DNA of 64,000 bases from contig QUDE01000004.1 in assembly GCA_003477405.1 (NCBI GenBank), positions 62,001 to 126,000 of the forward strand, given 5' to 3'. This document shows positions 924 through 56,282 of the stretch, piece after piece (position 1 is the first letter of the stretch; each line of letters begins with the position of its first letter). The translations under genes and the position numbers were made by a program. This DNA is from Ruminococcaceae bacterium AM07-15. Lineage in GTDB: Bacteria; Bacillota; Clostridia; Oscillospirales; Butyricicoccaceae. The notes beneath the pieces are model-generated. The model saw only the letters and a program-made list of their open reading frames with translations, had not been told where the DNA came from and did not search any database.

Positions 924-3005
924 ATGGAATCCCTTTTTCGCCGGTATTTTGACCCGGACTGTTTTGCTGCGCCCTATAAAGAGCCGGAAGAGCATCTTCT
1001 GGACCTGGTGTATTGGGTCCGGGAAGCGCTGGACGGCTGGAACAGGCTCTATGGGCAGAGGGAAAACCAACCAATGCCGGAAGGCGCCCGGGAAAAATGG
1101 GTGCAGGATCTGGACAAAAGCCTGTTTCATATGGACGCCCGGGTTTCGGCCAGCGTGAAGCGAGGGGATTTTCTGGCCGTCCAGTATGTGCGGGAGCTGT
1201 TCCGCCTGACCGATCTGGAACTTTTCACTTTGATCCTTTATCTGCTGCCCCGGTACGAAGAGACCTTTGGCCCTCTGCTAGGGAAGTGGCGGGGCGAGGG
1301 AAGACAAACCGGCCCCAGCCTGGATATGGCCCTCAAACTGTTCCACCTGGCCCGAGGTCCCGAGGATGTACCCGGTTATCACCGACAGCGGTATCAGCTG
1401 GAGAAAAAAGCCTTCTATGCTTTTTTGCAAAAGGACGGCACATTGGACAAACGCATGGCAGACTTTTTGCTCCAGAATGGCCGGGAGCCTTTGGAACGGG
1501 AAGTGGCGGAAACCTTCCTTCCCCAGAATACGGAGGCCCTTTTGTGGGGCGAGGAAGAGGCCGGGCATCTGGCGGAGACCATCGCCGGAGACGGGGAGGA
1601 AAAAGAGCCTTTGTTTCTGTGTCTCCGCGGCCCCAGCGGCGTGGGGCGCACCACCAGGGCCAAACGGGTGGCCCAGCTGCTGGGCATCCCGGCGGTGATC
1701 TTTTCCTGTGTTCCGTCTCCCCAGATGCGCCGGGAGGATTTTTTCGACGCTCTGCGCACCGCCGGACGGGAGACCATTCTGGTGCAGGGGCTGCTGGTGC
1801 TGCGCCAGCTGGACGCTCTGCTGGAAGAACCGGACACCGCCCGTCAGGTGCTGGATATGGCGGGGATGTTCTCCGGTGCGGTGCTTCTTCTCTGCGGAGA
1901 GGAGGGAAACCTTCTGGAGCTGTCCCAGGGGCGGCGGTGGCTGGAAGTGCCCATTGCCCTGCCGGACAAAAAGGCCAGCATCGCCCTATGGCAAAAAGAG
2001 CTTTCCGCTTTGCCGCTGAAAGAGCCGGTGGACGGGGCGGAGATGGCCAACAAATTCACCTTCACTCCGGCCCAGATCGTGGGTACCGGCCAGCGGGCGG
2101 CTGGGGAGGCCCGGCTTCACGGCCCCCTGGGGCGGCAGGATGTGACCCGGGCCGCCTACCACCAGGTGAGCCACAAGCTGGGAGAACACGCCACCCTGAT
2201 CTATGCCCGCCATACCTGGGACCAACTGGTGCTGGGGCAGCAGGAAAAGGAAATGCTGCGCATGGCCTGCGATCAGGTGCGGTATCAGCATGTGGTCTAT
2301 GACAAATGGGGCTTTGACAAGCGTCTGGCCTATGGCAAAGGGGTGAGTATGCTCTTTGCCGGACCGCCGGGCACCGGCAAGACCATGGCGGCCCAGGTGG
2401 TGGCCAGCGACCTGGGCATCGAGATGTACAAGGTGGATCTGTCCCAGGTGGTGAGCAAATACATCGGCGAGACCGAGAAGAATCTGAACCAGGTGTTTAG
2501 TGAAGCAAAAAAATCCAATGTGATTCTGTTTTTCGATGAGACCGACGCCATCCTGGGCAAGCGCACCGAGGTGAAGGATTCCCACGACAAAAACGCCAAC
2601 CTGGAAACCGCCTATTTGCTTCAGAAAATGGAGGAATACGACGGCATCACCGTCATGACGACGAACTACAAGGAAAACATCGACAGCGCCTTTTTCCGGC
2701 GCATCAGCTATGTGATCCATTTTTCCTTCCCCGATGAAAAGGCCCGCCGGGCCATCTGGAAGGGGATCTTCCCTCAGGAAACCCCGTTGGGAGAGGATGT
2801 GGATCTGGATTATCTGGCCCGGCAGTTTTCCATCACCGGCGGCAGCATCAAAAACATCGCTTTGGTAGCCGCCTTTATGGCCGCCCGGAAGGATGTGCCG
2901 GTGGGGATGGAACACATTCTCAGGGCCACCCAATTTGAAATGGCCAAACAGGGAAAGATCATGCTCCGGGAGGATTATGGCGAATATGGCTATCTCCTGC
3001 CGTAG
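924..3005 (+). CDS. eCIS-type AAA+ ATPase with two AAA domains
   Basis: A 693-residue cytoplasmic ATPase. The N-terminal roughly 200 residues are helical. A first AAA module follows with a degenerate Walker A, GPSGVGRTT, in which arginine replaces the usual lysine. The second AAA module is canonical: GPPGTGKT at residues 480-487, Walker B ILFFDETDAI and sensor MTTN. AAA+ ATPases of this type are a hallmark of eCIS loci (Afp15-like) and are thought to help assemble the particle. I chose ATG 924 over ATG 918 because AGGAGG ends at 916, which leaves 7 bases before 924 and only one before 918. Confidence 0.88.
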   Translation: MESLFRRYFDPDCFAAPYKEPEEHLLDLVYWVREALDGWNRLYGQRENQPMPEGAREKWVQDLDKSLFHMDARVSASVKRGDFLAVQYVRELFRLTDLELFTLILYLLPRYEETFGPLLGKWRGEGRQTGPSLDMALKLFHLARGPEDVPGYHRQRYQLEKKAFYAFLQKDGTLDKRMADFLLQNGREPLEREVAETFLPQNTEALLWGEEEAGHLAETIAGDGEEKEPLFLCLRGPSGVGRTTRAKRVAQLLGIPAVIFSCVPSPQMRREDFFDALRTAGRETILVQGLLVLRQLDALLEEPDTARQVLDMAGMFSGAVLLLCGEEGNLLELSQGRRWLEVPIALPDKKASIALWQKELSALPLKEPVDGAEMANKFTFTPAQIVGTGQRAAGEARLHGPLGRQDVTRAAYHQVSHKLGEHATLIYARHTWDQLVLGQQEKEMLRMACDQVRYQHVVYDKWGFDKRLAYGKGVSMLFAGPPGTGKTMAAQVVASDLGIEMYKVDLSQVVSKYIGETEKNLNQVFSEAKKSNVILFFDETDAILGKRTEVKDSHDKNANLETAYLLQKMEEYDGITVMTTNYKENIDSAFFRRISYVIHFSFPDEKARRAIWKGIFPQETPLGEDVDLDYLARQFSITGGSIKNIALVAAFMAARKDVPVGMEHILRATQFEMAKQGKIMLREDYGEYGYLLP

Positions 3006-19341: not shown

Positions 19342-19601
19342 AAAAAAGTCTTTGGGAAGTCTGGATTTCTCAGGCTTTTCAAACTGGACTAAAACTGATT
19401 GGATTGGAGAGAGACGCTTGTCCAGCCCTTCATCAACCCGCAAAAAGCCGCGACCTGTGCGTGGCTTTTTGCACTTCTCAAGGGGCAAGTGTGCGCCGAA
19501 GGCGTACATGTATCCCCTTGCAAAAACTCGGAAAAGCGGCAAGGGCCGCTTTTCCGGCATACAAAAAAGTCCTTGGGAAGTCTGGCTTCCCAAGGACTTT
19601 C
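19342..19601. repeat. Structured intergenic element, copy A, between duplicated terminators
   Basis: The conserved core is 19440-19562. It contains three helices: GCAAAAAGCC with GGCTTTTTGC (19440-19449 and 19463-19472); CAAGGGG with CCCCTTG (19479-19485 and 19514-19520) enclosing GTGTGCGCC with GGCGTACAT; and GGAAAAGCGGC with GCCGCTTTTCC (19530-19540 and 19545-19555). The flanks 19342-19380 and 19563-19601 match at 32 of 39 positions, and the right one is the terminator of the DUF3343 gene. A second core lies at 54665. The space from 19261 to 19606 holds no credible gene. Confidence 0.85.
19567..19599 (-). terminator. Terminator of the yedF-DUF3343 operon
   Basis: On the - strand GTCCTTGGGAAG pairs with CTTCCCAAGGAC around CCAGA and runs into six T. 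It lies 8 bases past the DUF3343 stop. Confidence 0.85.
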
Positions 19602-19606
19602 GTATG

Positions 19607-19879
19607 TCAGATCTGAATGGCTTCCACCTGGCGGTGGTTTTTATCTCCTTTGGCAAAATACAGCTGAAACACCCCTTTTTCCATTCCCAGGCTGTTGGCC
19701 GCGGCGATGGCCTCCTGCTGGTCCATTGGGGGCAGCATCACCGAGATGCCGCAGCTTTGGGACACTTCCCGCAGAGTGGGGATGACGGTGATGGAATAGC
19801 GGGGCCGGAGGATCTTCTGGGCCTCCATGGCCGAATGGGTATTTTCAAAGGAGATCACATAAAATTCTGTCCGTTCCAT
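19607..19879 (-). CDS. DUF3343 putative selenium/sulfur carrier protein
   Basis: A 90-residue protein of the DUF3343 family, often encoded beside yedF and selenium genes. The fold is small alpha/beta, with the expected N-terminal FYVISFENTHSAMEAQKIL and the Cys-containing SQSCGISVML. ATG 19879 shares its A with the TGA of yedF, which indicates coupled translation. A longer in-frame start at 19903 would lie inside yedF and is less likely. Family members are proposed carriers for reactive selenium or sulfur; that is family knowledge, not shown here. Confidence 0.82.
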   Translation of the reverse strand: MERTEFYVISFENTHSAMEAQKILRPRYSITVIPTLREVSQSCGISVMLPPMDQQEAIAAANSLGMEKGVFQLYFAKGDKNHRQVEAIQI

Positions 19880-20460
19880 CAGACGCGCATCATCTTGCCG
19901 CAAGCGGTGACGGCTTCCAGAATTTCATACATATTGCTCACTGTGCCGCACTGGAGCTTGTCGGTGATGCCGAAGAAGTTCAGGCAGGTGCCGCAGACCA
20001 TCACCCGGGTACCCTTCTCCATCAGTGTTTTCAGGCTGTCCACGATCTGCTGGTTTTCACAGGGCAGCATGACGCCTTCGTTCATAAAGGCAATGACAGA
20101 GGGCGGGGTGTCCATCTGGGTCAGGGTGTAGAAATACATATTGATCAGGTTGTGGCCCAGCTCATTGTCGGCGGAACCGATACGGTTTTCGGTGCAGAAA
20201 ATGGACCAGGAACGGTCTTCATAGGCCTCAGCTTTCTGCACATCGGCATTGGGGTCCTTTTTCAGGGTGACGGTATAAACACCGTTGTCCTCCTGGCTCT
20301 CATGGGTATAGCCCACACTGGCGGCAAAACGGCTCAGGTTCTGCACGGCGGTGGGGTTGTCCACCAGGGTCTGGATCTCTTCTTCACCGTTCTGCACGGC
20401 GGCCTTGGTCATGAGGACGGGCTTGGGGCAGGCTTCGCCCCGGGCATCGACTTTATACAT
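19879..20460 (-). CDS. yedF: YedF-family sulfurtransferase-like selenium metabolism protein
   Basis: A 193-residue protein. Residues 1-70 form a TusA/SirA-like domain with the catalytic-type motif CPKPV near residue 12. The C-terminal half is a DsrE-like domain with VCGTCLNFFG, whose two cysteines could exchange selenium or sulfur. ATG 20460 has GGAGGG 8 bases upstream and fits the promoter at 20522-20550; the frame stays open further upstream but that part lies in the promoter. It is the first gene of a two-gene operon with DUF3343. Confidence 0.87.
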   Translation of the reverse strand: MYKVDARGEACPKPVLMTKAAVQNGEEEIQTLVDNPTAVQNLSRFAASVGYTHESQEDNGVYTVTLKKDPNADVQKAEAYEDRSWSIFCTENRIGSADNELGHNLINMYFYTLTQMDTPPSVIAFMNEGVMLPCENQQIVDSLKTLMEKGTRVMVCGTCLNFFGITDKLQCGTVSNMYEILEAVTACGKMMRV

Positions 20461-20521
20461 TGGGGAACCCTCCAGTTTCAAAAAAATCCGGACAGGGACA
20501 AAGACCCTGTCTCCTGGTTTC

Positions 20522-20550
20522 ATTATAACAGCCGGGTTTTTCCCCGTCAA
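20522..20550 (-). promoter_or_regulatory. Promoter of yedF
   Basis: On the - strand TTGACG (20550-20545) and TATAAT (20527-20522) are separated by 17 bases. Confidence 0.75.
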
Positions 20551-29992: not shown

Positions 29993-30057
29993 AGACCTCC
30001 CCCAGGGAGATCAGACCGCTCATTTTCCGTATCCGCGCAAAAAATGAAGGGCGACGG

Positions 30058-30245
30058 TGAAGGCAGGTGTTCTGGCTTTGCGTCATGGCGCACCGCCGCC
30101 TTCCCGGAAAACCAGTGGCCAGGGCGGACGCTCGGCGTTTACAGCAACGGGATTGCGCGGGATTTACACCCGGCTTCCCTCTTGGCCCCAAGGGGACCTT
30201 CACCGCGTTTGGTTGTTTCAGGCCGGGAACATTCAGCCCCAGTCC
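30058..30245 (-). ncRNA. Cobalamin riboswitch
   Basis: Read on the - strand, this leader contains the conserved blocks of the B12 riboswitch in order: GGTGAAGGTCCCC, then GGGAAGCCGGTGTAAATCCC, the B12 box GCCACTGG, and the 3' element AAGCCAGAACACCTGCC. It precedes hemA by about 140 bases and is placed correctly behind its own promoter. It should repress the tetrapyrrole operon when cobalamin is plentiful. Confidence 0.93.
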
Positions 30246-50173: not shown

Positions 50174-50249
50174 GCGGATGTAGCTCATCTGGTAGAGCGC
50201 CACCTTGCCAAGGTGGAGGTAGCGAGTTCGAGCCTCGTCATCCGCTCCA
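50174..50249 (+). tRNA. tRNA-Gly (anticodon GCC)
   Basis: Complete cloverleaf: acceptor GCGGATG with CATCCGC, D-arm around GCTC...GAGC, anticodon stem CCACC/GGTGG with loop TTGCCAA, and T-arm GCGAG-TTCGAGC-CTCGT. The CCA end is encoded (50247-50249). Confidence 0.95.
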
Positions 50250-54584: not shown

Positions 54585-54812
54585 AAAAAAGAAGGCCCGA
54601 AGGCCTTCTACGGGTTGCCAGAGATTATGCACCGGGAAGAGTCTGTCTGCTTTCAAATCAATCTGCAAAAAGCCGCAACCTGCGCGTGGCTTTTTGCACC
54701 TCTCAAGGGGCCAGTGTGCGCCCAAGGCGTGCATGCAGCCCCTTGCAAAAACTCGGAAAAGTTGCCTGAGCCACTTTTTTCCATATACAAAAAGAAGGCC
54801 CGAAGGCCTTCT
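54585..54812. repeat. Structured intergenic element, copy B, between duplicated terminators
   Basis: The conserved core is 54665-54787 and matches copy A nearly base for base. The first helix (54665-54674 with 54688-54697) is identical. The second (54704-54710 with 54739-54745) encloses GTGTGCGCC with GGCGTGCAT, a change that keeps pairing. The third hairpin is less perfect. The flanks 54586-54609 and 54789-54812 are 24 identical bases, each the GAAGGCCCGAAGGCCTTC hairpin with an A-run. The space 54453-54825 holds no credible gene. Confidence 0.87.
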
Positions 54813-54825: not shown

Positions 54826-55653
54826 TTACAGTGCCGACTGACGGGTTTCGCTGGTGATGGAGCTGGCCCGGACAATGAGCTTCCGGGGGCATACCGCCAC
54901 GCACTCGCCGCAGTTGACGCATTTGTCGTAATCGATGGAGGCCAGATTATCCACCACATGGATGGCATCGTGCTTGCAGGTCTTCTGGCACAGAGTACAG
55001 CCGATGCAGCCGATGTTGCAGTTTTCCCGCAGCACCGGGCCACGGTCGTGGGAGGAGCAGGAGACGAACACATCCTGCTTTTCCGAAACCAGGGAGATCA
55101 GATGCCGGGGGCAGGAGGAGACGCAGAGGCCGCAGGCACGGCATTTGTCTGCCTGTACCACCGCAACGCCGTTGACCACATGGATGGCGTCATAGGGGCA
55201 GGCCTTCTCGCAGGTGCCGTAGCCCAGGCAGCCATAGGCACAAGCCAGGTCGCCGGAGCCCACCTTGGAGGCGGCCAGGCAGTCCTGGATGCCCTCATAT
55301 TCAAACTTCCGCTTGGCATTGTGGCCGCCGCGGCAGTTCACATGGGCCACTTTCCGGTCCTGTGCAGAGGCTTCCACGCCCATGATGGCGGCGATTTTGG
55401 CAGCCGTTTCCGGTCCGCCCACAGCGCAGCCGTTGCAGGGAGCTTCCCCGGCCACCACGGCGCTGGCAAAGCCGGAGCAGCCAGGGTAGCCGCAGCCGCC
55501 GCAGTTGGCCCCGGGCAGCACTTCGGTGATCTGGGGCAGGCGCTCGTCCTGCTCCACATGGAAAATCTTAGAGCTCACCGCCAGCAGCAGGCCGAAAAAC
55601 AGGCCCATGGCCCCCAGGGCCACCACCGGGGCGACGATCGACAGTGTATACAA
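54826..55653 (-). CDS. rnfB: Rnf complex subunit B
   Basis: A 275-residue iron-sulfur protein. After one N-terminal membrane helix comes the four-Cys motif ANCGGCGYPGCSGFA with a further Cys pair, then several ferredoxin-type clusters (for example CRACGLCVSSCPRH and CVNCGECVAVCPRK). It takes electrons from ferredoxin for the Na+- or H+-pumping Rnf complex. It is the last gene of rnfCDGEAB. Confidence 0.95.
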   Translation of the reverse strand: MYTLSIVAPVVALGAMGLFFGLLLAVSSKIFHVEQDERLPQITEVLPGANCGGCGYPGCSGFASAVVAGEAPCNGCAVGGPETAAKIAAIMGVEASAQDRKVAHVNCRGGHNAKRKFEYEGIQDCLAASKVGSGDLACAYGCLGYGTCEKACPYDAIHVVNGVAVVQADKCRACGLCVSSCPRHLISLVSEKQDVFVSCSSHDRGPVLRENCNIGCIGCTLCQKTCKHDAIHVVDNLASIDYDKCVNCGECVAVCPRKLIVRASSITSETRQSAL

Positions 55654-55694: not shown

Positions 55695-56282
55695 TTAAAA
55701 GATCTTCAGCCCCTGGAATCCCATAAAGGCCATGGCCAGCAGGGAAGCGCTGATCAAGGCGATGGGGAAGCCCTCAAAGGAGGGGGGACATTCGGAAAAC
55801 TCCAGCCGCTCCCGCACAGAGGCGAAGAGCACGATGGCCAGGGTGAAGCCGGCGGCGGCCGAGAAGCCGTAAACCACCGAGCCGATGAAGTTCAGGTTGT
55901 TCTGCACATTGAGCAGAGCCACGCCCAGCACGGCGCAGTTGGTGGTGATCAGAGGCAGATAGATGCCCAGGGCCTGGTAGAGGGAGGGCATGCTCTTCAT
56001 CAGGAACATTTCCACAAACTGTACCAGGCTGGCGATGATCAGGATAAAGGCCACCGTCTGCATATACTCCAGGTCAAAGGCCAGGAGCACATATTTGTTC
56101 ACCAGATAGGTGACGGCGGAAGCCACCGTCATAACGAACATGACGGCCAGGCCCATGCCCAGGGCGGTCTCGGTTTTCTTGCTCACGCCCAGGAAGGGGC
56201 AGCAGCCGAGGAATTTCACCAAAACGAAGTTCTCCAGCAAAATGGCGCCCAGGGCCAGGGAAAAGAGTTCGGTAAAGCTCAT
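55695..56282 (-). CDS. rnfA: Rnf complex subunit A
   Basis: A 195-residue membrane protein with six helices; the block [19 protein letters not shown] carries the cysteine that binds the membrane Fe-S cluster together with RnfE. It follows rnfE by 3 bases. Confidence 0.95.

Follow-up and report, generated by a model that had tools for sequence, protein, structure and literature searches.

The question raised by this locus is why a short, folded sequence should be bracketed by two versions of one terminator hairpin, and why the arrangement should recur with a different terminator elsewhere in the window, that is, the stretch of 64,000 nucleotides of contig QUDE01000004.1 of Ruminococcaceae bacterium AM07-15 that was analyzed here. 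A first-pass annotation had taken the copying of the flanks to be a property of the inserted element and had suggested a small mobile or retro-copied RNA family that uses terminators as targets. The two insertions are described first, followed by their relatives in other genomes, the origin of the second hairpin, the source of the ends and the nature of the core.

Two insertions in the window

Copy A occupies positions 19381-19562 on the plus strand (~182 bp from flank comparison; the search for terminal inverted repeats (TIRs) shifts the ends by a few bases and gives 188 bp). Its neighbors are a TauE-type permease gene on one side and a TusA/DsrE gene on the other, the latter (19879-20550) being the nearest minus-strand open reading frame (ORF) of at least 100 aa with a known domain to the right of the element. 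On this gene side there is an intact minus-strand terminator hairpin at 19563-19601, which has perfect 15-bp arms (19566-19580 and 19586-19600) and lies toward the minus-strand genes to the right, while the distal flank at 19342-19380, to which no strand is assigned, is a decayed copy of the same hairpin and is read as the target duplication. The two flanks are equal at 32 of 39 bases (82%), just as the first-pass annotation had it. The left TIR at 19380-19395 (plus strand) is also decayed and matches CAGACTGTCGAAAAAC at 11 of 16 positions, as counted by hand. The conserved core, a putative RNA, extends from 19437 to 19530 on the plus strand (105.9 bits with model R1, see below), and the three helices proposed earlier are confirmed on that strand as H1 (19440-19472), a hairpin with the near-invariant loop motif GACMTGYGC, H2 (19479-19520), a two-part hairpin read from the sequence and present as a consensus in the alignment, and H3 (19529-19556), a subterminal hairpin that adjoins the right end.

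Copy B (54610-54788, plus strand, ~179 bp), the ends of which are too decayed for the TIR search, does have the same arrangement with a different terminator. Its core is at 54662-54755 (plus strand, 105.9 bits) and it is flanked by two minus-strand copies of the hairpin AAAAAGAAGGCCCGAAGGCCTTCT, one distal (54586-54609) and one on the gene side (54789-54812), which are equal at 24 of 24 bases. The gene-side copy lies beyond the end of a ferredoxin-type gene (54826-55653) that is RnfB-like as judged by its neighbor, an Rnf-Nqr subunit gene (55695-56282), and a DUF4015 gene is located on the other side of the element. The flanks of both copies are referred to as terminators because of the hairpin, the A/T tracts and the position at gene ends. 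A consensus terminator scan of the window copies listed the gene-side hairpin of neither A nor B, the stems of which extend into the A/T tracts; what the scan did list, on the minus strand in both cases, was the distal hairpin for copy B and the element's own H3 for copy A.

The core is on the plus strand in both copies. A core pattern allowing up to three mismatches has two matches in the window, compared with 0.03 expected, and copies A and B, which were both used to build R1, are the only strong matches to this model in the window. A promoter scan listed none inside either element. The ORFs of at least 100 aa that overlap copies A and B extend into the flanks, and with elements of 171-254 bp in the TIR-search set there is no coding capacity at this threshold of 100 aa. 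At gathering score an Rfam scan of the window returned only a cobalamin riboswitch (30045-30216, minus strand, 107.6 bits) and a tRNA gene (50174-50246, plus strand).

Copy number, ends and related genomes

The nearest relative genome, G001, which we infer to be that of Intestinimonas butyriciproducens An565, shares 21% of the sampled words of the window and has at least 48 core matches that are dispersed over its contigs, a lower bound as 48 is the number that was scored. G001 has both window insertions at the corresponding positions (L001, 92.8%, and L055, 91.7%, over ~3 kb with one alignment each), and hence they are older than the split between the two genomes, which fits the decay of copy A. 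The search of relatives that the first-pass annotation had recommended also gave R1 matches, within the family in 37 of 87 genomes and within the order in 48 of 394 (22 of 169 genera), and these too are lower bounds, given the strict filters and the few candidates that were scored per genome.

The terminal repeats are ~16 bp in length; read inwards, the left one is CAGACTGTCGAAAAAC and the right one GAGCGTGTCGAAAAAG. The TIR pattern has 32 + 28 matches in G001, compared with 4 + 2 for the reversed control, and paired matches are ~180-254 bp apart. An autonomous copy was sought in G001 in 20 stretches around paired or unpaired TIRs, which yielded more short copies and no recognizable inverted pair at the distance expected of an insertion sequence (IS) with up to three mismatches; G001 may have a weaker or incompletely assembled autonomous copy. 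Variants of the element are also seen, in that L126, L127, L129, and L128 have a long additional hairpin on H2, and in L128 the tip of H2 is replaced by an insertion.

Duplication of the flanking hairpins

A loose pattern gave 72 copies, 68 in G001 loci and four in the window, two of the latter by chance. Both ends are present in 56 of the 72 (55 from G001 together with copy A), and the 16 in which an end could not be recognized, including copy B and the two chance window matches, were left uncounted. With so loose a pattern a few of the counted copies may also be chance matches, such as L043-7344, where no core match is listed. In 35 of the 56 copies the score of the flanking direct repeat exceeds 8, the highest value among 300 mismatched left/right pairs. 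Of these 35 repeats, 25 are centered on a hairpin with 7 net bp or more, compared with 2 of 300 random window sites. The edges of the hairpin are a median of two bases beyond either end of the repeat (offsets -2/+2). Exceptions are L037, with a 43-bp duplication that is not centered on a hairpin, and L144, with an 18-bp duplication.

Flank copying is a common property of the element, and in this sense the earlier claim stands; it is not universal, as the remaining 21 of the 56 copies have no significant flanking duplication. The first-pass annotation had regarded copies not flanked by duplicated terminators as evidence against its reading, and such copies are found, although some are plainly decayed pairs. 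For example, L008, L010, and L033 failed the repeat test, yet by eye they have two diverged hairpins of one ancestry, and in further failing copies just one flank has a hairpin, or neither does as far as could be recognized. The flanking hairpins of L008, L010, L033, and L046/L215 are unlike in sequence and both still pair, as if they had changed coordinately (by eye). According to a rough A/T rule, the terminators at the 35 duplicated sites are directed against the core at 14, with the core at 5 and both ways at 16, so expression of the core by read-through is not obvious. The orientation of genes deduced from long ORFs was dropped as a measure, since it gave many divergent pairs, which are implausible at terminators.

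On a wider set the repeat test was passed by 34 of 87 items, or by 28 after removal of four rows of the L213 array, L116 and L117, and some of these 28 are also in the set of 56 copies. Palindrome duplication was found in only 1 of 35 items outside family f1 (L114), so the RNA is found more widely than the form that duplicates terminators. Three of the loci in the wider set have arrangements of their own. L213 (G232:C1:22700-23950) is a tandem array of five cores ~160-180 bp apart. The core in L116 is beside a tRNA-Arg (cct) and has a 44-bp near-identical copy of the 3′ part of this tRNA on the opposite side, like the remnant of an attachment site, and that in L117 is within a 46-bp duplication (net score of 37) of an apparent gene start, not a terminator.

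Empty sites

Empty sites in which both hairpins were already present would have counted against an insertion that brings the second one, as the first-pass annotation pointed out. Three empty sites were found and each has a single hairpin. They come from two genomes of the same genus, G016 and G037: at all three of the G016 sites that were compared (L214, L063, and L045), G037 has the same flanks, no element and one hairpin (L221, L223, and L225) where the occupied site has two, indicating that the second hairpin arrives with the insertion of the element. At the compared sites G028 gave partial matches only. A search of G002 for the core gave no match, and five sites were compared in this genome. 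At the L004 locus both neighboring genes are present, together with a single evident terminator hairpin that differs in sequence (by eye), at L013 there is the gene and then a single terminator, L003 matches one gene only, and L006 and L012 are without a match. Together with the 25 of 35 repeats that are centered on hairpins, the empty sites bear out the proposal of a small mobile element that uses terminator hairpins as its targets.

Ends shared with IS1182-family elements

The ends of the element point to the machinery that may have moved it. Of 295 genomes of the order, 50 contain the transposase domain PF13751 (48 above cut-off), and 9 of the 30 PF13751 loci that were fetched contain inverted copies of the end sequence of the element 1.0-1.8 kb apart, the other 21 being without the pair. 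Among 76 control loci a single one has such an inverted pair, made up of an end of the element of that locus itself and a match with two mismatches. In five of the nine ISs (L154, L157, L162, L167, and L172) an exactly duplicated palindrome of 26-34 bp immediately adjoins the ends, and the duplications of the same five were recovered also by a search that assumes no TIR. Four ORFs of these five ISs were tested and they score 388-405 bits with NF033551 (IS1182 transposase, cut-off 270) and carry both PF13751 and PF05598. The remaining four loci with the end pair have no duplication. Three of these IS1182-type elements (L153, L163, and L165) have unlike palindromes on their two sides, which may have come about by recombination between copies, and the fourth is cut by the end of a contig.

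The element and a piece of an IS1182 transposase (L228) occur together in G064, which has 11 core matches. The right end of this piece, read inwards, is CAGACTGTCAAAGAACC and abuts a perfect palindrome, and the end of the element L088 in the same genome is AGCTTGTCAAAGAACCCC. No IS1182 transposase was found in G001 in searches with PF13751, PF01609 (which took in nine genomes) and NF033551, though this genome has many copies with perfect duplications, and the NF033551 search of 24 genomes gave none above the cut-off and sub-threshold pieces in nine. As the TIRs are common to IS1182-family ISs that also duplicate palindromes, the evidence points to DNA transposition rather than to the retro-copying that had been suggested earlier.

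The core might have been an internal sequence of such an IS, and this was rejected as R1 finds none in 30 IS1182 loci (best match 14.9 bits, E 0.35). Hence those ISs have not given rise to the element by simple internal deletion, and by eye it resembles them only in the ends and the subterminal hairpin. What it has of an IS1182-derived MITE are TIRs that match those of an autonomous member and the same target and duplication, and what it does not have is an interior taken from a parent IS. On the basis of sequence, its ends make the element a MITE, and it does not derive by deletion from the ISs found here.

A conserved structured core

Model R1 was made from 38 copies (MAFFT alignment A1), in which 9 of the 22 pairs show compensatory change. 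A second alignment, A2, with 65 matches from 56 sources and 63 distinct rows, was fitted to the structure, which favors pairing. In A2 97.1% of the cells pair compared with 67.0% in shuffles, 347 cells are changed on both sides in a compensatory manner compared with 98, and the covariation score is 0.741 compared with 0.216; none of 500 shuffles reached the observed paired fraction, compensatory cells or covariation score. The paired fraction drops to 38-56% in slid controls. The number of pairs that are changed on both sides (20 of 22, with a shuffled mean of 17.2) is a weak discriminator, as two of the 500 shuffles were as high. On the modelled strand there are 176 G-U cells and 9 A-C cells in A2, and 122 and 8, respectively, in A1 (counted by hand), and this excess of G-U suggests that selection acts on one strand, most simply in the form of RNA. 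The core thus appears, from its pattern of substitution, to be conserved as a single-strand structure and most simply as an RNA, in agreement with what the three helices had suggested at the outset. A cruciform in double-stranded DNA was considered as the selected form of the core, and the same strand preference counts against it. The loop motif of H1 is nearly invariant and the H1 stem varies freely, and between genera the interior of the element is better conserved than the ends (by eye).

A known RNA family was rejected as the identity of the core, since there is no core match at gathering score in the Rfam scans of the window and of 20 loci. The latter gave only tRNA and skipping-rope RNA, both outside the core, and the weak matches on copy B all have E values of at least 0.3 and are below gathering. 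A skipping-rope RNA (RF02924) is located at positions 1891-1987 (minus strand) of L119, ~300 bp from a core. Cores are also seen in what is apparently the same gene neighborhood across genomes (L094, L096, and L103, and also L099 and L102), suggesting vertical inheritance (by eye). Our guess is that the core RNA either promotes persistence of the element or is of use to the host.

Origin of the element

We propose, with considerable confidence, that the element is a non-autonomous DNA transposable element, MITE-like and with ends of the IS1182 family. In the mechanism that we envisage, an IS1182-family transposase acting in trans would recognize the extruded (cruciform) hairpin, the 3′ ends of the element would be joined at the two 5′ feet of the hairpin, and gap filling would then copy the entire stem-loop, so that the duplication would be as long as the hairpin. 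As an intact terminator is left at the site, insertion should cost the host little. The conservation of the interior speaks against this reading in that it is not expected of an ordinary MITE, and we tentatively entertain, as something possible rather than probable, that the element is a bacterial analogue of a SINE that is built on a DNA transposon.

It seems unlikely that this DNA element is moved by a transposase of another family that has its end sequence and palindrome target in common with IS1182. The results with G001, where no IS1182 transposase was found, and with the 24 genomes, none of which was above the NF033551 cut-off, would be in keeping with such a helper; however, IS1182 elements match the present one both in their ends and in the identical palindrome duplication, the element and an IS1182 piece reside together in G064, and helpers are commonly lost once amplification has taken place. 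We consider improbable, by a similar reckoning, a bacterial SINE-like retroelement, in which target-primed reverse transcription at a nicked terminator would copy the structured RNA and the duplication would result from staggered nicking at the feet of the hairpin. A structured core that prefers one strand, an interior more conserved than the ends between genera (by eye) and the failure to find an IS1182 transposase in G001 all favor such a route, but the TIRs are shared with IS1182 DNA transposons, which produce duplications of the same kind, and the element occurs in both orientations relative to the terminator. That nothing has moved, and that terminators were locally duplicated in tandem or by slippage around an ordinary repeat, is scarcely credible and is rejected, for while the array of five cores in G232 shows that local duplication can occur, there are at least 48 dispersed copies in G001, the duplicated ones each with a hairpin of their own, and the empty sites with one hairpin contradict it.

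If the element is transposed as we propose by an IS1182-type transposase, it provides many natural examples, for three of which an empty site is available, of what the authors of the IS1272 work drew as a hypothetical branch of their model (PMC5678879), namely a cruciform attacked at its 5′ feet with duplication of the whole stem-loop. Structure-directed target choice by an IS1182-type transposase thereby becomes testable, and the findings suggest a way for an element to insert at terminators without doing much damage. They also reveal a putative structured RNA family with strong covariation and no Rfam match at gathering score that is present in dozens of copies in some gut bacteria.

Comparison with known systems

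Group IIC introns target intrinsic terminators, as does the present element. To our knowledge their insertion does not duplicate the terminator, and in contrast to them the present element is bounded by inverted repeats; the Rfam matches in the window, the 20 loci and copy B included no group II intron family. ISfinder tables reportedly give long direct repeats for IS1182 members, and whole-hairpin duplication may already be known to specialists. Among the papers listed by searches of the open-access literature, we recognized none that describes the element, the RNA, or duplication of a whole terminator as an observed target site duplication (TSD).

The IS1182 family, as represented by IS1272 and TnSha1, is like the present element in the ~16-bp inverted repeats and in having hairpin targets, often terminators, with no consensus in primary sequence, and the DDE transposase family would be a further point of likeness (PMC5678879; PMC4923244). 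The hairpin is replaced or deleted by IS1272/TnSha1 with no TSD (PMC5678879; PMC4923244), the targeting of hairpins, including terminators, is accompanied by deletion (PMC4923244), and duplication of the whole stem-loop is drawn as hypothetical pathway b of Figure 13 (PMC5678879). The present element, on the other hand, duplicates the whole stem-loop, is without a transposase and carries an RNA core. The SPRITE, BOX, and RUP repeats of pneumococcus are similar, by description, in being small and interspersed, and SPRITE is terminator-like; duplication of a terminator as the TSD is not mentioned in the accessible part of the source (PMC10969869). Bacterial MITEs, as outlined in the same part of that source (PMC10969869), resemble the element in being short, non-coding, present in multiple copies, bounded by TIRs and rich in hairpins, whereas the TSD of the present element is a whole hairpin of variable length, and its interior is conserved across families of the order with compensatory changes.
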